A stretch of DNA of 64,000 bases from Inhella proteolytica (GTDB lineage: Bacteria > Pseudomonadota > Gammaproteobacteria > Burkholderiales > Burkholderiaceae_C). The notes beneath the pieces are model-generated. The model saw only the letters and a list, made by a program, of their open reading frames with translations, did not search any database and was not told the DNA's origin. How positions within the stretch are numbered: the first letter of the stretch is position 1; each line of letters begins with the position of its first letter. The stretch is taken from assembly GCF_016093275.1 (NCBI RefSeq), contig NZ_JAEDAK010000002.1, positions 62,001 through 126,000 on the forward strand, given 5' to 3'. Both the position numbers and the translations under genes were made by a program. Shown in pieces: positions 46,324 through 53,646 of this stretch.

Positions 46324-47088
46324 GTGATCAGCTTCAGCGAAGCCCAGATCCTGGCCTGGCTGAATCCGCTGCTCTGGCCCTTCCTGCGTTGTCTGGCGCT
46401 GTTCGCCGGCATGCCGCTGTTCAGCCAGCGCAATGTGCCCATGCCGGTGCGCGTGGGTCTGGCGCTGTTCTTCGCCGTGGCCTCGCAAGCCGCCCTGCCG
46501 CCCATGCCGGTGCTGCCTCTGGACAGCCCGCCGCTGCTGGTGCTGCTGATCGCGCAGCAGCTGCTGATCGGCCTGGCCATGGGCTTTGCCGTGCGCCTGG
46601 TGTTCGCGGCGCTGGAGTTCGCCGGGGAAATCGTCGGCCTGCAGATGGGCCTGAACTTCGCCGGCTTCTTCGACCCCGCCACCGGCATGCAGGGCACGGC
46701 CACGGCGCGCTTCTTCGGCACCCTGGTGGCCTTCCTGTTCATCGCCACCAATGGCCATCTGCTGCTGATCCAGGCACTGGCGCAGAGCTTTCACGCCTTT
46801 CCGGTCGGTACCGAACCCTTCGCCTTCTTGCGCGCCACCGCGCCGCAGGCCTGGGGGGCGGAAATCTTCCGCGCCGGGCTGTGGATCGCGCTGCCGGTGG
46901 TGGCCCTGCTGCTGTTCGTCAATCTGGCGCTGGGCGTGGTGTCGCGCGTGGCGCCGCAGATCCATGTGTTCGCGGTGGGTTTTCCGCTCACGGTCAGCAT
47001 CGGTCTGCTGGGTCTTGTGGCCACGCTGCCGCTGATGCAGGTGCCGCTGGAGACCACGCTGGCGCGCCTGCTGGCGGGCTTTACCTGA
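46324..47088 (+). CDS. fliR: Flagellar export gate protein FliR (GTG start)
   Basis: FliR completes the FliPQR gate. The 254-residue product has six hydrophobic helices, including FLRCLALFAGMPLFSQRNVP and AVRLVFAALEFAGEIVGLQM with MGLNFAGFFDPATGMQ. The start codon is GTG at 46324, four bases after the fliQ stop. Its stop overlaps the oppositely directed yfiR-like gene by eight bases. Confidence 0.95.
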   Translation: MISFSEAQILAWLNPLLWPFLRCLALFAGMPLFSQRNVPMPVRVGLALFFAVASQAALPPMPVLPLDSPPLLVLLIAQQLLIGLAMGFAVRLVFAALEFAGEIVGLQMGLNFAGFFDPATGMQGTATARFFGTLVAFLFIATNGHLLLIQALAQSFHAFPVGTEPFAFLRATAPQAWGAEIFRAGLWIALPVVALLLFVNLALGVVSRVAPQIHVFAVGFPLTVSIGLLGLVATLPLMQVPLETTLARLLAGFT

Positions 47089-47590
47089 CCTCGCGCGCGA
47101 GCTTGAGCATCTGGCTGGACAGCGCCAGGCCGCGGCGGCGTGCCTCGGTCTGGTTGATGCTGAAGGCCAGGCCCTGCGGCTCGGTCAGCAGGGCGATGCT
47201 GGCGCCGGCGCGCAGCGACTCGGGCGCCAGGCCCACCACCAGCACCGGGGCCTCCCCCAGGCCCTCCACCCAACGGCGCAGGCTGGCCGGCTCGCTCTGG
47301 CCCAGCACCAGCACCTGGCAGTGCTGGGCGGCATCGCGCGGGCTCTCCACCTCGCGGTAGCGCAGCGGCGCCGTGCCACGGCTGCGCACGCTGAGCTGGC
47401 GCAGCGCCTGCTCGGCCGCCCCCAGTTGCACGCCGCACAGCGTCAGCCCGCCCTGGGGTGGGTTCGGCCATTCGGTGAACTGGGAAAAGCGGTAGACGAA
47501 GGCGGCGCGCAGGCGCGCTTCCTCGGGCAGCTCGATCTGCGCCACGGCCGGCAGGGCCAGGGCCAGGCAGAGCAGCAGGGCCGGTTTCAT
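47081..47590 (-). CDS. YfiR-like periplasmic protein (DUF4154)
   Basis: The 169-residue product has a signal peptide (MKPALLLCLALALPAVAQ) and a DUF4154/YfiR core (LRAAFVYRFSQFTEWPN, LTLCGVQLGAAEQALRQL, CQVLVLGQS). In the Pseudomonas YfiBNR system YfiR sits in the periplasm and represses the cyclase YfiN. Here the same operon encodes a YfiN-like cyclase, so the pairing is natural, but YfiB is missing and a TonB-dependent receptor sits between them. The ATG at 47590 overlaps the receptor stop (ATGA). A longer in-frame start in the neighbouring gene is rejected. Confidence 0.85.
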   Translation of the reverse strand: MKPALLLCLALALPAVAQIELPEEARLRAAFVYRFSQFTEWPNPPQGGLTLCGVQLGAAEQALRQLSVRSRGTAPLRYREVESPRDAAQHCQVLVLGQSEPASLRRWVEGLGEAPVLVVGLAPESLRAGASIALLTEPQGLAFSINQTEARRRGLALSSQMLKLAREVR

Positions 47591-49533
47591 GGCCCGAAGC
47601 GCCAGTCGAAGCCGAGCCAGACCACCCGGCCCTCGTGCTCGGAAGGCGGCCCGCCGGACACACCCGGTGCATCCCAGTAGCGCCGCCCGGCCAGGTTGCG
47701 CAGGCCCAGGAAGACCTCGCCGCCCTGCGGGTGCTCCCACTGCAGATGGGCGTGCAGCAGCGCGTGGCCGGGCAGGCTGTAGGCCTCGGCCTGGCGGCGC
47801 TGCACCGCGCTGCCGTGCAGGGCCAGGCGCCAGCCCGCACCCAGCGGGTGCCAGGCGCGCCAGCCCGCCAGGCCGTGCGGGCTGTTGCTCAGTTCGCTCC
47901 CACTGGCATAGCGGCTGCGCTGCAGCGCCAGCCACAGTTGGGCGCTGCCGCCCTGGCCCCAGCGGCCGTCCAGCTGGGCCTCCAGCCCCTTGCTGCGCAC
48001 GGGTTCGCTGGCGCTGTAGAAGCTGGCCTCGGGGCCGGCGTCGATGAGGTTGCGGATGCGCCCCACATAGGCCACCAGGCGGTAGCGCCAACGCGGGCTC
48101 AGCGGCGCGTCCCAGGCCGCCTCCAGGCTGCGGATGCGCTCGGGTGGCGGCACCGGGATGTCCTGGAACTCGTTGGTCAGGATTTCGCTGCGGTTCGGCG
48201 CCCGGAAGGCATTGCCCAGGCTGAGCTTGAACTGCCGGCCCTGTTCGTCCGCCGCGCTGTAGGCCAGGCGCGGGCTGAGGCGGCTGCCCTGGCCGCGCAC
48301 GGCGTCGTGCCGCAGGCCCAGCAGCAGGTGCTGGCGCGGCGCCAGCGTCCAGCTGTCCTGCACGAACAGGCCGATGCGGCGGCTGCGCCGGTCTACCCCC
48401 TCGTCCTCCTGGCCGGCGATGAAGTAGCGGATGCGCTGCTGGCGGTCGCGCTGCACCTCGGCGCCCAGCATCAGCTCGTGGCGCTCACCCAGCGGGCCGG
48501 CGGCACGGGCCTCCAGCAGGTCCCAACGGCCGCGCGTCTCGTACAGGAACACGCCGCGGCGCCCGCTGGCGCTGACGAAGGGCTCGTCGTTGCGGTAGAC
48601 CAGCAGCTGCTTGGCGCCGGCCAGCTGCAGCTGCCAGCCCGCGCCCAGATCGCCCTCCCAGCTGGCATGGCCGTAGTGGATGCGGGTGCGGTCCAGGCCC
48701 TGGCCCAGCTCGCCGTCATCGTCGGACGGGTTCAGTGGGGTGGGCAGGCCGTGCACGCGGTCCACCGTGCCGACGCGCAGCATCAGGCCGCGGTACAGGC
48801 CATAGAGGTTGAAGCGCTCGGCACGGTCCCAGTTGAGCTCGCGCGCGGCGCTGCTGCGCTTGAGCGGATCGGGGTCGGGCACGGTCAAGGGCAGGCGCTG
48901 GCCCCACCAGCGGCTGAAAGCCAGGCCCCATTCATTGCCACTTTCCAGCCGCTGCGCCCAGCTGGCGCTGGCGGTGCGGTTGAGCTGCTCGCCCAGCGTG
49001 GCGCGCACGCGCAGGCCGCGCGCCTGGTTGGCGCGCTGGGTGATGACGTTGAGCACGCCCAGAAAGGCGTTATTGCCATAGAGCGCCGAGCCCGAGCCGG
49101 GCGTGAACTCGACGCGCTCGATCTGGCTGACCTCGACGAGGAAGTCCTGGTCGATCTGGCCGGCGTCGTAGATGTTCTCGTTCAGGCGCAGGCCGTCGAG
49201 CAGGAAGAGCACGCGCGAGTTCAGGTCGCCCGGCCGGCCCAGGCCGCGCACGCCCACCTGGGTGAACAGCCCGTCTTCGCTGAGGTAGACGCCGGGGAAG
49301 AGCTGCAGGATGTCGGCCAGGCTGCGCAGGCCCAGGCGCTGGATGTCCTGGCGCGTCACCACATGGGTGACGCCGGGCGCGGCGGAGCCGCTCTGGGCCA
49401 GGCGCGCGGCGGTGCTGACGCCGAGCTCGGCGCTGGGCCGGTCCAGCTCCTGGCGCAGCAGCTCCTCCAGCGTGGGTTCGGCCGCCGCGGCGCCGGCCGC
49501 CAGCATCAGCAGGGCGGGCAGCAGCGTTTTCAT
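47587..49533 (-). CDS. TonB-dependent outer-membrane receptor in a YfiR/YfiN operon
   Basis: The 648-residue product has a signal peptide (MKTLLPALLMLAAGAAAA), a plug domain (VTRQDIQRLGLRSLADILQL, then GVYLSEDGLFTQVGVRGLGR and IERVEFTPGSGSALYGNNAF) and a long region of alternating strands for a 22-strand barrel ending near FDWRFGP. The substrate is unknown; no siderophore or sugar gene is near. Plug and barrel are complete. The neighbours are a YfiN-like cyclase (upstream) and a YfiR-like protein (downstream), so a signalling function, reporting a ligand or the state of the outer membrane to cyclic-di-GMP synthesis, is plausible. Both ends overlap by four bases. Confidence 0.9.
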   Translation of the reverse strand: MKTLLPALLMLAAGAAAAEPTLEELLRQELDRPSAELGVSTAARLAQSGSAAPGVTHVVTRQDIQRLGLRSLADILQLFPGVYLSEDGLFTQVGVRGLGRPGDLNSRVLFLLDGLRLNENIYDAGQIDQDFLVEVSQIERVEFTPGSGSALYGNNAFLGVLNVITQRANQARGLRVRATLGEQLNRTASASWAQRLESGNEWGLAFSRWWGQRLPLTVPDPDPLKRSSAARELNWDRAERFNLYGLYRGLMLRVGTVDRVHGLPTPLNPSDDDGELGQGLDRTRIHYGHASWEGDLGAGWQLQLAGAKQLLVYRNDEPFVSASGRRGVFLYETRGRWDLLEARAAGPLGERHELMLGAEVQRDRQQRIRYFIAGQEDEGVDRRSRRIGLFVQDSWTLAPRQHLLLGLRHDAVRGQGSRLSPRLAYSAADEQGRQFKLSLGNAFRAPNRSEILTNEFQDIPVPPPERIRSLEAAWDAPLSPRWRYRLVAYVGRIRNLIDAGPEASFYSASEPVRSKGLEAQLDGRWGQGGSAQLWLALQRSRYASGSELSNSPHGLAGWRAWHPLGAGWRLALHGSAVQRRQAEAYSLPGHALLHAHLQWEHPQGGEVFLGLRNLAGRRYWDAPGVSGGPPSEHEGRVVWLGFDWRFGP

Positions 49534-50777
49534 GGCGTGGCGATGCGGTAGCAGTTCTTGCCAGCCGCCTTGGCGGCGTACATGGCGGCGTCGGCCTGGC
49601 GCAGCAGGGCCGCGGCCTCCTGGCCATGCTGGGGTGCGATGGCACCGCCGATGCTCGCACCCAGTGGCATGGCTTGGCCGCGCACCTGCAGCGGCGCGCT
49701 CACGGCCGCAATCAGCCGCCCGGCCAGCTGCTCCAGCGTGGCCGCGCTGTGCAGCGGCGCCACCAGCAGCGCGAACTCGTCGCCGCCCAGGCGGAACAGG
49801 GTGTCCTGATCCCGCAGCACGCTGGAGAGGCGCTGCGTGGCCTCGATCAGCACCTCGTCGCCCGCCGCATGACCCAGCTGGTCGTTGATGGCCTTGAAAT
49901 GGTCCAGGTCAATGAACAGCAGGCCCAGGGCCTGCAGGCCGTGCTGCACCTCGATCACCTGGCGCTCCAGCTCAATGTCGAAGGAGAGCCGGTTGGGCAG
50001 GCCAGTCAGGTGGTCGCGGTGCGCCAGTTGGCGCAGCGCCAGACCGTCCTGCCGCTGCTGCTGCAGCTGCTGGTGCAGGTCCTGGTGCCAGACCTGAATG
50101 CGGCGCAGCATCTCGTTCACCTGGCCGGCCAGCCGCCCTACCTCGTCACCATGCACCACGGCGGCACGCAGGCCGTAGTCCTGCGTCGTGGCCACGCGCT
50201 CGGTCAGCTCGGCCAGCGCCACCAGCGGCGCCAGCGCACGCCGCTGCACCCAGCGCAGGGCCAGCGCCGCCAGCAGCAGGGCCAGCAACAGCAAGGCCAG
50301 GCCGCCGAGCCAGATGCGCGCCATCATGGCCTCCAGCCCGGCCTGGGCCTCGCGCCAATGCAGGGCGCCGATCGGCTCGTTCTGCAGCACGATGGGTACG
50401 CGCAACTCGAAGGCCTGGCCGAAGCCGGGCAGCCGCGCCAGCGTCGCCACCTGGGCGCGCGAGCGCCAGTGCGCGAAGCTGCGGCCCTGGACGTCAAGCA
50501 GCTGCAGCTCGCGCAGGTCGGCACGCCGCCCAGCCACCTCGTCAAGCTGGATCTGCGCCGCGCGCGGGTCCTGGAAGGCGAGCATGGGCGCGAGGTTCTG
50601 CGCCAGCAGGGTGGCGGCCGCACCGGCCGCCTCGCGCTGCTGGGCCCGCGCCGTGTAGTAGGCCATGCCTTGCACGAGCACGAAGCTCAGGAACAGGGTC
50701 AGGGCCAGCACCCCGACATTCAGACGCGTCAGCCGCTGAACCAGCGAGCCGCGCCCGAGCCGGGGGTTGGCAGTCAT
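49530..50777 (-). CDS. YfiN-like membrane diguanylate cyclase
   Basis: The 415-residue product has two membrane helices (about 18-40 and 153-173) that flank a periplasmic CHASE8-like domain with AAATLLAQNLAPMLAFQDPR. A HAMP region (about 173-225) leads to a GGDEF domain with signature at 331-335 and a spaced RDQD inhibitory site. This is the YfiN/TpbB/DgcN layout. In Pseudomonas YfiN is held inactive by periplasmic YfiR and released through YfiB. Here yfiR-like and yfiN-like genes are in one operon with a TonB-dependent receptor, so control from the outer membrane is likely. It overlaps the response regulator by four bases. Confidence 0.9.
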   Translation of the reverse strand: MTANPRLGRGSLVQRLTRLNVGVLALTLFLSFVLVQGMAYYTARAQQREAAGAAATLLAQNLAPMLAFQDPRAAQIQLDEVAGRRADLRELQLLDVQGRSFAHWRSRAQVATLARLPGFGQAFELRVPIVLQNEPIGALHWREAQAGLEAMMARIWLGGLALLLLALLLAALALRWVQRRALAPLVALAELTERVATTQDYGLRAAVVHGDEVGRLAGQVNEMLRRIQVWHQDLHQQLQQQRQDGLALRQLAHRDHLTGLPNRLSFDIELERQVIEVQHGLQALGLLFIDLDHFKAINDQLGHAAGDEVLIEATQRLSSVLRDQDTLFRLGGDEFALLVAPLHSAATLEQLAGRLIAAVSAPLQVRGQAMPLGASIGGAIAPQHGQEAAALLRQADAAMYAAKAAGKNCYRIATP

Positions 50778-51412
50778 CCCTGCACGAGGCCTTGCCGGAT
50801 CGCGTACACCGTCAGCTCGGAGTTGTTGGTGAGGCCGAGCTTTTCCAGCACGCGGGCACGGTAGACGCTGACGGTCTTGGGGCTGAGCAGCAGCTCCTCG
50901 GCGATGTCCGACAGGCGCCGGCCGGAGGCGATCATGACCAGCGTCTGCAGCTCGCGATCGGAGAGCTTGTGGTGAGCCTGCTCGGGCTGCGGCGCGGTCA
51001 GGTTCTCCACCAGCATCTGGGCGATCTCGGGCGTCACGTACTTGCGCCCCTGCGCCACCATGCGCACGGCCTGCACCAGCTCGGCCGGGTCGCCGCCCTT
51101 GTTCACGTAGCCGAAGGCGCCGGCGCGCAGGCTGCGAATGGCGTACTGCTCCTCGGGGTACATCGAGACCACCAGGGTGCGCGGCGCATCGGCGTCGTCC
51201 TTCAGCACATGCAACACGTCCAGGCCGCTGCGCCCGGGCAGGTTGATGTCGAGCAGCAGCACATCCGGCCGCGGGCCGGTGCGCAGGGCCTCGCGCAGGC
51301 TGCCGTAATCGCCCACCTCGCCCACCACCTCGATGTCGCCGGCGTCGATCAGGGTGTCGCGCATGCCGCGCCGGATCAGCGCGTGGTCGTCGCAGAGCAG
51401 CACGCGGATCAT
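50774..51412 (-). CDS. NarL/FixJ-family response regulator
   Basis: The 212-residue protein has a receiver domain with D55 in DVLLLDINLPGRSG and a LuxR-type helix-turn-helix (SDRELQTLVMIASGRRLSDI, then AEELLLSPKTVSVYRARVLE and KLGLTNNSEL). It should bind DNA when phosphorylated by the kinase next to it. The ATG at 51412 overlaps the kinase stop (ATGA); a longer in-frame start 39 codons upstream lies in the kinase gene. Targets are unknown; the operon itself is a likely one. Confidence 0.9.
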   Translation of the reverse strand: MIRVLLCDDHALIRRGMRDTLIDAGDIEVVGEVGDYGSLREALRTGPRPDVLLLDINLPGRSGLDVLHVLKDDADAPRTLVVSMYPEEQYAIRSLRAGAFGYVNKGGDPAELVQAVRMVAQGRKYVTPEIAQMLVENLTAPQPEQAHHKLSDRELQTLVMIASGRRLSDIAEELLLSPKTVSVYRARVLEKLGLTNNSELTVYAIRQGLVQG

Positions 51413-52584
51413 GCGCCCTCCCCCAGCCAGGCGGCGTCGCTCGGGTGGCCGGGCTCCCAGCGCCCGTCCAGCGGGATCGACAGCACCAGGTGCACGCCGC
51501 GCCCGGGCCGGGTGCTCAGATCCACCCAACCGCCCACGCTGGCGGCGCGCTCCTGCAGGCCGCGCAGGCCGAAGCGGCCGGGCTTGTCCACCTCGTTCGC
51601 CTCCATGCCGCGGCCGTCATCGTGCACCTCCACACCGAGCACGCCGGACGCGCACTGCAGCTCCAGCTGCACCTGGCTGGCCTGTGCATGCTTGGCCACG
51701 TTGTGCAGGGCCTCCTGCACGAAGCGGTAGGCCACCAGGGCCAGCGCCTCGGGCAGTTCAAGTTCCTGATCCAGGCCTGCGCACAACACCGTCAGCCCAT
51801 GGCGACGCTCGAAATCCTGCACCAGCCATTGCAGCGCCGCCGCCAGCCCCTCCTGCAGGATGGGCGGGCGCAGGTTCTCCATCAGGCGACGGCTGGCCTC
51901 GATCGCCGCGTTCAAGGTCTCGATGGCGCGCTCGGTCCGTTCGCGCAAGGGGGCATCCTCGAGATGACGCTGCAGCCAGCCGAGCTCGTACTTCAGCGCC
52001 GTCAGTCCGCTGCCCACATCGTCATGCAGCTCGCGCGCCAGCGCCGCGCGCTCGGCCTCGATGTGCTGCTGCAGATGCGCGGTCAGCTCCTGCAGGCGGC
52101 GCGTCGATTCGCGCAGCGCCGCGTCGGCGGCCCGGCGCGAGCGCTCGGCCTCGGCCGCCTTGACGGCCTGTTGCAAGGCCGGGCCCAGGCGCGCCAGGCG
52201 GCTCTTGAGCAAGTAGTCCGATGCCCCTTCGCGCATGGCCGCCACGGCCACGTCTTCGCCGATCTCGCCCGACACCAGCACGAAGGGCAAGACGCGCCCG
52301 CTGGCGCGCAGATGGCGCAGCATGTCCAGGCCGCTGTGCTCGGGCAGCTGGTAGTCGCACACCACCGCGTCCCAGTCCTGGTCGAGCGCGGCGGCGAAGT
52401 CCGCCAGGGTCTCGACCCGCGTCCACTCGGCCGGCAGCCCTGCCTGCCGCACCAGGGCCTGCATGCGCAGGTGATCGACCTCGGAATCTTCGACATGCAG
52501 GACCCGCAACACCGGCGTCGAGGCCGGGGGCGAAGGCGGCGCCAAGGGGCTTGCGGCAGGGGCGTTTGCCAGGGTTTCCAACAT
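51409..52584 (-). CDS. Soluble hybrid histidine kinase with N-terminal receiver domain
   Basis: The 391-residue protein has no membrane helix. An N-terminal receiver (phospho-acceptor D77 in DAVVCDYQLPEHSG) is followed by a HisKA_3-type dimerisation helix with phospho-histidine H187 in ARELHDDVGSGLTALK. A HATPase domain then follows (FVQEALHNVAKHAQASQVQL and DDGRGMEANE). This is a NarX/DegS-family layout with a receiver as input, so it receives rather than senses a signal. Partner: the NarL-type regulator next to it. A sigma-70-like promoter overlaps its start and predicts an almost leaderless message. Confidence 0.9.
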   Translation of the reverse strand: MLETLANAPAASPLAPPSPPASTPVLRVLHVEDSEVDHLRMQALVRQAGLPAEWTRVETLADFAAALDQDWDAVVCDYQLPEHSGLDMLRHLRASGRVLPFVLVSGEIGEDVAVAAMREGASDYLLKSRLARLGPALQQAVKAAEAERSRRAADAALRESTRRLQELTAHLQQHIEAERAALARELHDDVGSGLTALKYELGWLQRHLEDAPLRERTERAIETLNAAIEASRRLMENLRPPILQEGLAAALQWLVQDFERRHGLTVLCAGLDQELELPEALALVAYRFVQEALHNVAKHAQASQVQLELQCASGVLGVEVHDDGRGMEANEVDKPGRFGLRGLQERAASVGGWVDLSTRPGRGVHLVLSIPLDGRWEPGHPSDAAWLGEGA

Positions 52585-52591
52585 GCGACCG

Positions 52592-52619
52592 AGTATGCCG
52601 CGGCCCTCAGGCGTGCCAA
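52592..52619 (-). promoter_or_regulatory. Sigma-70-like promoter at the kinase start
   Basis: On the minus strand TTGGCA (52619-52614, 5 of 6 to TTGACA) lies 16 bases from CATACT (52597-52592, 4 of 6). Transcription would begin almost at the ATG at 52584, giving a leaderless or nearly leaderless message. A CCCCTGTGGGG palindrome lies further upstream. Confidence 0.42.
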
Positions 52620-52696
52620 GCGCACACTCCCCTGTGGGGGAAGCACCATCAAAAGGGATTACCCTAGGCGCACTGGACGCAGCGAGCGAACGCCTT

Positions 52697-52757: not shown

Positions 52758-53252
52758 ATGCAGGGAAACGAACCGACTGACGCACCGCTGGACGCGGAAG
52801 TGGTTGGATCGCCCGCCGAGGAAGCCCGCTTCACCCTGCTCGCCGCCGCCGAGATCCAGGATCACCTGATGTCGGTCACCAACGATCTGGAGCGTCTGCA
52901 ACGCCTGCTCGACGACGCCGGTGAGGCCCTGTCGGTGAACTTCTTCGGCGCTTCGGCCGAAGTGCAATCGCTGGCCCAACGCGTGAACGGCGGTGGCGCG
53001 CTGACGCCCGGCGAGTTTGCCGAGGCCCTGCAGTTCATCGCCGGGGCCATCACGGCGCTGCAGTTCCAGGACATGTCCACCCAGCTGATCGCCCACACCA
53101 GCCAACGCCTGCGCGCCTGCGCCGACAAGCTGGCGCGCGAGGCCTTCGGCAGCGACGACGAGGACGGCGATGCCTTGGTGATCGAGGCCCCCAACCGGCC
53201 CAACCCCGTGACGCAGGACGAAGTCGATGCCGGCTCCGTCGAGTTGTTTTAA
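52758..53252 (+). CDS. CheZ-like phosphatase candidate at the head of the cheYAW operon
   Basis: The 164-residue helical protein carries LQFQDMSTQLIAHT at residues 101-114, which aligns with the CheZ active site FQDLTGQ and retains the aspartate (D105) and the catalytic glutamine (Q109). Its C-terminus (VTQDEVDAGSVELF) looks like the CheY-binding tail of CheZ. It is shorter than CheZ (210) and otherwise different. Position immediately before a CheY gene fits a CheY-P phosphatase. A bona fide CheZ is encoded at 22432-23064, so the window has two candidates. Related genes are often left as hypothetical protein. Confidence 0.68.
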   Translation: MQGNEPTDAPLDAEVVGSPAEEARFTLLAAAEIQDHLMSVTNDLERLQRLLDDAGEALSVNFFGASAEVQSLAQRVNGGGALTPGEFAEALQFIAGAITALQFQDMSTQLIAHTSQRLRACADKLAREAFGSDDEDGDALVIEAPNRPNPVTQDEVDAGSVELF

Positions 53253-53283: not shown

Positions 53284-53646
53284 ATGCACTCGATCCTTGC
53301 GGTGGACGATTCCGCCTCGATGCGCCAGATGGTGGCGTTCACCCTGAAGAACGCGGGCTTCAACGTCGTCGAAGCCGTGGACGGCCAGGATGCATGGGAG
53401 AAGGCGACCCAACGCGATTTCGACCTGGTGCTCACCGACCAGAACATGCCCCGCATGGATGGCATCTCGCTGACCAAAAAGCTGCGCGAGAACCCCAAGT
53501 TCAAGAGCACGCCGATCCTGATCCTGACCACCGAGTCCAGCGACGCGATGAAGCAGGCCGGCCGCGCCGCCGGCGCCACCGGCTGGCTGGTCAAGCCCTT
53601 CGATCCGGCCAAGCTGATCGAAGTGATCGGCAAGGTCATCCGCTAA
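53284..53646 (+). CDS. cheY: Chemotaxis response regulator CheY (second)
   Basis: The 120-residue receiver has the acidic pair in ILAVDDSASMRQMV, phospho-acceptor D52 in LVLTDQNMPRMDG, and the switch TTES and KPFD. It belongs to the CheA-operon type of CheY found in many beta- and alphaproteobacteria, different from the E. coli-like CheY at 23082-23471. It precedes cheA by 14 bases. It may drive the motor or act as a phosphate sink. Confidence 0.92.
   Translation: MHSILAVDDSASMRQMVAFTLKNAGFNVVEAVDGQDAWEKATQRDFDLVLTDQNMPRMDGISLTKKLRENPKFKSTPILILTTESSDAMKQAGRAAGATGWLVKPFDPAKLIEVIGKVIR

Follow-up and report, generated by a model that had tools for sequence, protein, structure and literature searches.

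The locus described here lies in a stretch of 64,000 nucleotides (the window) from the contig NZ_JAEDAK010000002.1 of Inhella proteolytica, and its subject is a YfiR-like gene cassette with an associated TonB-dependent receptor (TBDT). As shown in Table 1, it was found that five minus-strand genes encode a hybrid histidine kinase, a NarL-type response regulator, a YfiN-like diguanylate cyclase, a TBDT, and a YfiR-like periplasmic protein. The initial annotation described these genes as an operon between fliR and the che genes, with an ATGA overlap at all four junctions. The window sequence bore out the coordinates, strand, and junctions, and Pfam identified both the fliR and the cheY-type flanks. 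The claimed domain make-up was confirmed as well, with the domains of all five proteins exceeding the Pfam gathering scores (Response_reg+HisKA_3+HATPase_c for the kinase). By eye, the phospho-accepting residues of the kinase and the regulator are present, as are the GGDEF motif and the RxxD inhibitory I-site of the cyclase. Longer alternative starts of the NarL and YfiR genes are also present in the list of open reading frames (ORFs). The convergent 3′ ends of yfiR and fliR share 8 nucleotides (47081-47088).

Table 1. Features of the five-gene locus and its flanks (numbered by position in the window)
Feature	Position	Strand	Remarks
Hybrid histidine kinase, REC-HisKA_3-HATPase_c	51409..52584	-	391 residues; no membrane segment by eye; Pfam
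NarL/GerE-type response regulator	50774..51412	-	212 residues; Pfam Response_reg+GerE
YfiN-like diguanylate cyclase, CHASE8-HAMP-GGDEF	49530..50777	-	415 residues; Pfam and motifs by eye
TBDT, plug and barrel	47587..49533	-	648 residues; N-terminal tail at about residues 19-43
YfiR-like periplasmic protein (DUF4154)	47081..47590	-	169 residues; Pfam
fliR (Bac_export_1)	46324-47088		flank of the five-gene set; Pfam
cheY-type receiver gene	53284-53646		flank of the five-gene set; Pfam
164-residue protein at the cheZ position	52758-53252	+	62-88% identity across the 7 other five-part loci
Sigma-70-like promoter TTGGCA-16-CATACT	52592..52619	-	ends 7 nucleotides before the kinase ATG
Palindromic site TAGGGTAATCCCTTT	52652..52666	-	upstream of the kinase gene

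Is this arrangement common in other genomes? A DUF4154 search was positive in 61 of 300 genomes of an order sample, 139 of 399 of a family sample, 84 of 349 of a phylum sample, and 5 of 6 of a genus sample. Neighbourhoods were taken from the order, family, and genus samples (11 listed DUF4154 places of the order sample were left out), and their genes were labelled by profiles grown from the window proteins. After removal of 2 duplicates, the census comprised 178 distinct YfiR loci, or 164 when 14 named loci found via the TBDT are excluded. In 135 of these 164 loci, a TBDT gene lies on the same strand within 600 nucleotides of the YfiR gene, a share of 82% which may run high because the family set, made up of 73 regions and 7 more from the genus, is mostly the top of a score-sorted list. 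Four more loci have a TBDT gene within 6 kb, and 25 have none. In a less selected set of 130 family genomes, a TBDT of the subfamily described below was found within 5 kb of 47 of the 70 YfiR matches. Among all 178 loci, the two genes are adjacent in 149, and in 146 of these the TBDT gene is upstream of the YfiR gene. The recurrence in other genomes that the initial annotation asked about was thus found: the trio is common, and the full five-part set is present in 7 further fetched genomes. The arrangement is not due to chance, since all five genes recur in those 7 genomes with fliR on one side and cheY-cheA on the other, and since the TBDT gene adjoins YfiR so often although the genome of I. 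proteolytica has only 33 plug-domain matches in 4.98 Mb.

The third partner mostly has the same N-terminal sensor region and ends in either a GGDEF domain or a kinase. The output-type labels were automatic and sometimes wrong (L035 was tagged kinase-type from a neighbouring ORF, its true partner being a GGDEF protein); by these labels, 103 loci are kinase-type, and 30 of them have a REC-GGDEF gene nearby. Since the sensor region is shared while the outputs are GGDEF domains or kinases, the latter at times with REC-GGDEF neighbours, the same input may reach cyclic di-GMP (c-di-GMP) directly or via a phosphorelay. In the genome G214, several TBDT-YfiR pairs (L043 and L045) stand in tandem over about 20 kb, next to a hybrid kinase and REC-GGDEF proteins. 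The genome of I. proteolytica has three YfiR genes, namely the window locus, L034, and L035. L034 (7234-11593) is a second trio in the order TBDT-YfiR-output, the output of which matches GGDEF and phosphodiesterase models along its length (GGDEF-EAL-like). L035 (7777-10011) is a classical set of YfiR, a CHASE8-GGDEF cyclase, and OmpA, which serves as an internal control for the TBDT versions.

In the YfiBNR system of Pseudomonas aeruginosa, the outer-membrane partner is the OmpA-like lipoprotein YfiB, and the initial annotation supposed that the TBDT stands in its place. An OmpA-like gene was sought on the same strand within 3.5 kb of YfiR, a TBDT being counted within 6 kb. With a strict sequence motif, which may miss some OmpA genes both at loci with a TBDT and at loci without one, such a gene was found at 8 of the 25 YfiR loci without a TBDT and at none of the 153 with one (Fisher p = 5e-8). 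All eight motif-found genes were confirmed by Pfam. Subtracting the named loci found via the TBDT leaves 0 of 139 (p = 1e-7). Neither a TBDT nor an OmpA-like gene was found at 17 of the 25 TBDT-less loci. I. proteolytica itself carries both kinds, L035 with OmpA and L034 with a TBDT. These counts and the recurrence of the arrangement agree with the supposition, and in the best reading of the gene neighbourhoods the TBDT would replace YfiB as the outer-membrane input of YfiR.

Do these receptors differ from other TBDTs? A profile of the N-terminal tail and plug was built from 59 YfiR-linked TBDTs and searched in the 130 genomes. It matched 49 TBDTs at more than 135 bits, of which 9 were in the training alignment of the profile, and 47 of the 49 are encoded within 5 kb of a YfiR gene. 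None of the other 101 profile matches listed is that near to YfiR. These TBDTs form a subfamily dedicated to YfiR loci. The tail bears a family motif, SLEEL (TLEEL in the window). Two tail residues, E23 and L25, each show conservation of 90% or more across 56 TBDTs. The tail is present (alignment from model position 10 or lower) in 47 of the 49 strong matches; among the other 101 listed, 87 start at position 11 or higher. In a structure model of the window TBDT with a predicted local distance difference test score (pLDDT) of 90.2, the plug and the barrel are confident, while residues 13-20 and 22-43 are unpacked with a pLDDT below 50. Since the tail is conserved though unpacked in the model, this suggests a binding segment, with TonB and YfiR as the candidate partners. 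The window TBDT has profile matches to the colicin I receptor and BtuB. Most of the PDB relatives that match its N-terminal half align from about model position 29-38, and some FhuA chains from 16-22. A canonical TonB box was not seen by eye in the TBDT; ELGVSTA has only a partial resemblance to one.

The TBDT could in principle be an ordinary nutrient transporter, with YfiR answering another cue such as redox via C52-C91 and the gene order reflecting co-expression. The redox-responsive pair Cys71-Cys110 of P. aeruginosa YfiR, as described in the available part of PMC4655355, is indeed kept in 81% of 149 TBDT-linked YfiRs. However, it is difficult to explain in this way why a single TBDT subfamily lies beside YfiR in 47 of 49 cases and has the tail in 47 of 49, and a free-riding transporter is not expected to exclude YfiB-type genes from all 153 loci. 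I consider mere co-regulation of neighbours improbable.

The YfiR sequences were compared according to their outer-membrane partner. The model of the window YfiR (pLDDT 93.6) has the solved YfiR structure 4yn7 as the best Foldseek match (E = 1.1e-8). In this YfiR, the Cys pair C52/C91 is retained, but the C-terminal C-x6-C pair is missing; a C-x(5-7)-C pair is found in 8 of 8 OmpA-linked YfiRs, 1 of 153 TBDT-linked YfiRs, and 2 of the 17 others. The contact positions with YfiB and the proposed YfiN face are those given in the available part of PMC4887326, and the P. aeruginosa numbering was read off the alignment in this analysis. The YfiN-facing surface is kept, the equivalent of F162 being F in 131 of the 153 TBDT-linked YfiRs. 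The YfiB-contact positions are changed, I169 to A in 114 of 153 and H177 to S in 121 of 153, while P178, which is P in 8 of 8 OmpA-linked YfiRs, is S or A in 125 of 153. On the side of the cyclase, the window protein has the CHASE8 Phe that all 136 of the aligned sensor regions share. By alignment, this residue would correspond to the AAVVF site of YfiN, and the role of that Phe in P. aeruginosa YfiN is treated in the available part of PMC3375315.

A more serious alternative is that the TBDT imports a small molecule, which YfiR binds like a substrate-binding protein and thereby frees the cyclase, the TBDT and YfiR making no contact. The next structural matches of the YfiR model are of the kind of 3lkv, 5z6v, and 3lft, which are named or known substrate-binding proteins, 3lft with L-Trp. 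In addition, crystals of P. aeruginosa YfiR bind L-Trp and vitamin B6 in a pocket that also takes F57 of YfiB, according to the available part of PMC4887326. The dedication of the TBDT and the absence of YfiB fit import equally well. On the other hand, import leaves unexplained why a conserved tail precedes the point at which TBDT homology usually begins. TBDT-linked YfiRs also differ at two positions of the pocket (I169 to A and P178 to S or A), although these changes could just as well point to a new ligand. Sensing of an imported molecule is rather unlikely in my judgement, and capture of YfiR by the TBDT is preferred.

It was then assessed how the trio came to lie beside the kinase and NarL genes. 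In the 130 family genomes, a NarL ortholog (E <= 1e-60) was found in 87. The kinase gene is within 250 nucleotides of it in 85 of the 87, cheY within 3 kb in 74, and fliR within 300 nucleotides in 38, fliR being on another contig or more than 20 kb off in 26. YfiR is within 8 kb in 8 of the 87, and the remaining 79 have no YfiR match that near on the contig. Ten genomes carry an insert of 0.3-6 kb that contains no YfiR gene. From these neighbour counts, the kinase/NarL pair is evidently an old resident of the fliR-che junction. The cyclase-TBDT-YfiR trio appears to have been inserted between the pair and fliR, the five genes not having evolved as a unit. Thus, a single-unit origin was ruled out by the neighbourhoods of the NarL orthologs, and the view of the initial annotation that the novelty lies in the complete five-part arrangement was not supported, the trio being an insertion beside an older pair.

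The full five-part set was read in 8 loci of four genera (the window, L117, L118, L120, L173, L174, L183, and L190), always between fliR and orf52758-cheY-cheA. The locus of Inhella gelatinilytica is among these eight (L120 in G593, of which L196 is a second copy). G306, G312, and G372 are inferred from coordinates to be three further cases; each has NarL, a gap of about 1.45-1.57 kb fitting the cyclase, a subfamily TBDT, and then YfiR, although fliR is on a separate contig in G312. Of the 8 read loci, all except L120 have the four-base overlap of TBDT and YfiR. NarL is the most conserved of the five proteins, with 81-93% identity in the 7 other loci, while the TBDT has only 37-57% identity to that of the window. 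The same-order trio without the pair was found at 14 named loci of Duganella, Rugamonas, Janthinobacterium, Rheinheimera, and relatives. In a tree of the trio, the five-part trios are not a single clade, and the Oxalobacteraceae trios group with L173, L174, L183, and L190. The trio may therefore have been inserted once and then spread, or it may have been inserted several times. On contig C3 of G360 (642743-646495), a YfiR gene lies at the NarL/fliR junction with a NarL-YfiR gap of about 1.9 kb, possibly a loss variant.

These results bear on the idea that all five genes form a single purpose-built circuit, with the kinase and regulator giving the YfiR module a dedicated second input. The order is kept at one chromosomal site in 8 fully read genomes and the window has its four ATGA overlaps, as such a circuit would have. 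Nevertheless, the idea is highly improbable when the regulator orthologs have YfiR within 8 kb so rarely and fliR within 300 nucleotides far more often, when the trio occurs without the pair, and when NarL and the TBDT are so unequally conserved.

How does the cassette compare with known systems? Its nearest relative in content is YfiBNR (TpbB/DgcN) of P. aeruginosa. The window YfiR has the DUF4154 periplasmic YfiR fold (109.8 bits versus a Pfam cut-off of 24.9) but falls under the NCBIfam YfiR equivalog cut-off (38.8 versus 85). Likewise, the CHASE8-HAMP-GGDEF cyclase with its conserved Phe passes the Pfam cut-offs for all three domains, while its best NCBIfam match, DgcN/YfiN, is below the cut-off (265 versus 325). 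The differences are the TBDT as the outer-membrane partner, with no OmpA-like lipoprotein among the five window proteins, and a YfiR without the second Cys pair (Cys145-Cys152 there) and with different YfiB-contact positions. Because it has no YfiB component, the cassette falls outside YfiBNR. HmsCDE of Yersinia stands beside YfiBNR among the closest known systems, and the cassette shares with them the expectation of a partner in the outer membrane. The available part of PMC3375315 calls the YfiR-YfiN core modular, with kinase outputs and with YfiB lost with distance; the word TonB is absent from its main text as available.

Three NCBIfam families, NF053590, NF053591, and NF053592 (TOL_0244 TonB-dependent receptor, TOL_0243 YfiR-like protein, and YfiR-like-associated sensor histidine kinase), have the same three-part logic, and the same-order census locus L066 passes all three cut-offs. 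This kind of trio is already known to annotators through the kinase version. The window proteins differ from it, the TBDT scoring 82 versus a cut-off of 645 and YfiR 81.5 versus 125, and the window output is GGDEF where theirs is a kinase. No published study of a TBDT/YfiR/cyclase cassette was found in the open-licence literature, judged by titles and abstracts. Transducing TBDTs that work with anti-sigma factors are of the FecA/FecR/FecI and FpvA type. The likeness is that a TBDT in the outer membrane would pass a signal inward through its N-terminal periplasmic part. Unlike these, the window TBDT has no STN domain by Pfam and the output would be c-di-GMP; no sigma or anti-sigma match was found by Pfam among the five window proteins.

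The upstream region was also analyzed. The sigma-70-like promoter is a consensus match only, found once as compared with a mean of 0.0 in shuffles, and a transcript from it would be nearly leaderless. The palindrome TAGGGTAATCCCTTT is the sole match in the window when up to 2 mismatches are allowed. Its core, AGGGTWAWCCCT, is shared by 6 of the 7 other five-part loci, L183 being the one without it; among the remaining fetched loci, it was found only in L196. The palindrome is a candidate operator of the kinase-regulator operon, possibly the site of the NarL regulator.

It is most likely that the cassette works like YfiBNR with the TBDT as the input. In the proposed mechanism, the trio, inserted between the old two-component pair and fliR, is now probably transcribed as the tail of the kinase/NarL operon. 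At rest, periplasmic YfiR would sit on the CHASE8 domain of the inner-membrane cyclase and keep it off. Ligand binding or TonB loading of the TBDT may free the flexible tail, which would then retain YfiR at the outer membrane in the manner of YfiB; the cyclase would be released and c-di-GMP made. The kinase-regulator pair probably times expression of the operon via the palindrome. The evidence that favours this reading is the adjacency, the dedication of the TBDT, the exclusion of YfiB, the residues of YfiR and CHASE8, the conserved unpacked tail, the mosaic origin, and the palindrome. As a whole, such a trans-envelope c-di-GMP cassette, with the TBDT tail capturing YfiR and the pair setting expression, is the best explanation, and I give it about an even chance of being correct. 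It is proposed more tentatively, at somewhat short of an even chance, that this is a distinct mode of inward signalling by TBDTs, in which the SLEEL tail captures YfiR and turns on a cyclase (a hybrid kinase at sister loci) with no sigma/anti-sigma pair, and that in Burkholderiales this route, which seems not to have been studied, commonly links the cell surface to c-di-GMP.

Several observations weigh against capture of YfiR by the tail. The tail could be a TonB-binding segment only. Two members of the 49-strong subfamily have no YfiR nearby; 14 of the 101 other matches listed align from position 10 or lower and have no YfiR neighbour; and L181, a training row that lies beside YfiR, is absent among the matches listed. 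Conversely, 23 of the 70 YfiR matches have no subfamily TBDT within 5 kb, and the YfiR gene of G360, at the same site, has no space for a TBDT. YfiRs with neither partner mostly carry the TBDT-type residues, so that common ancestry, and not the TBDT, may account for the changed positions. On the YfiR tree, 3 label changes suffice to place the OmpA-linked rows, and none of 500 shuffles gave a count as low; part of the YfiR differences is therefore due to shared descent. Direct-coupling analysis of 136 trios did not place the plug clearly above the barrel, nor did the positive control YfiR-CHASE8 stand out from the barrel background. It was rejected as evidence: real pairs mostly exceed shuffled ones, but so do the barrel controls, which reflects shared descent.

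YfiBNR-type systems have long lacked an identified signal. With a dedicated TBDT, there is a receptor at the cell surface for a definite ligand, and ordinary receptor work could then find the signal. Across the order, cyclases and hybrid kinases alike are coupled to this input module, as is a GGDEF-EAL-like protein in L034, so that one demonstrated case would explain many loci. The five-part arrangement, as a local insertion, is worth less than the initial annotation held, and the dedicated TBDT subfamily and the exclusion of YfiB are worth more. The fliR-che mosaic presents a regulatory operon growing by uptake of a ready-made signalling cassette.

The flagellum as the target of the cassette output is a guess, and any effect on flagella is conjectural. 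No match to fliM, fliN, fliP, or fliR was found in the fetched stretches of any census locus outside the five-part set, so the flagellar setting belongs to the kinase/NarL pair; a general flagellar link of the trio was rejected on this ground. The 164-residue protein at the cheZ position had no Pfam or NCBIfam match in a profile scan. The idea of a chemotaxis cluster next to the Oxalobacteraceae trio was rejected as well: at 10 of the 14 named trio loci, a CheW-like gene lies some kilobases off, and CheW was the sole chemotaxis match among 12 ORFs scanned at L198, 6 of which were in a wrong frame or matchless. A strong CheA-like match was found at six census loci (L060, L126, L130, L178, L182, and L187).

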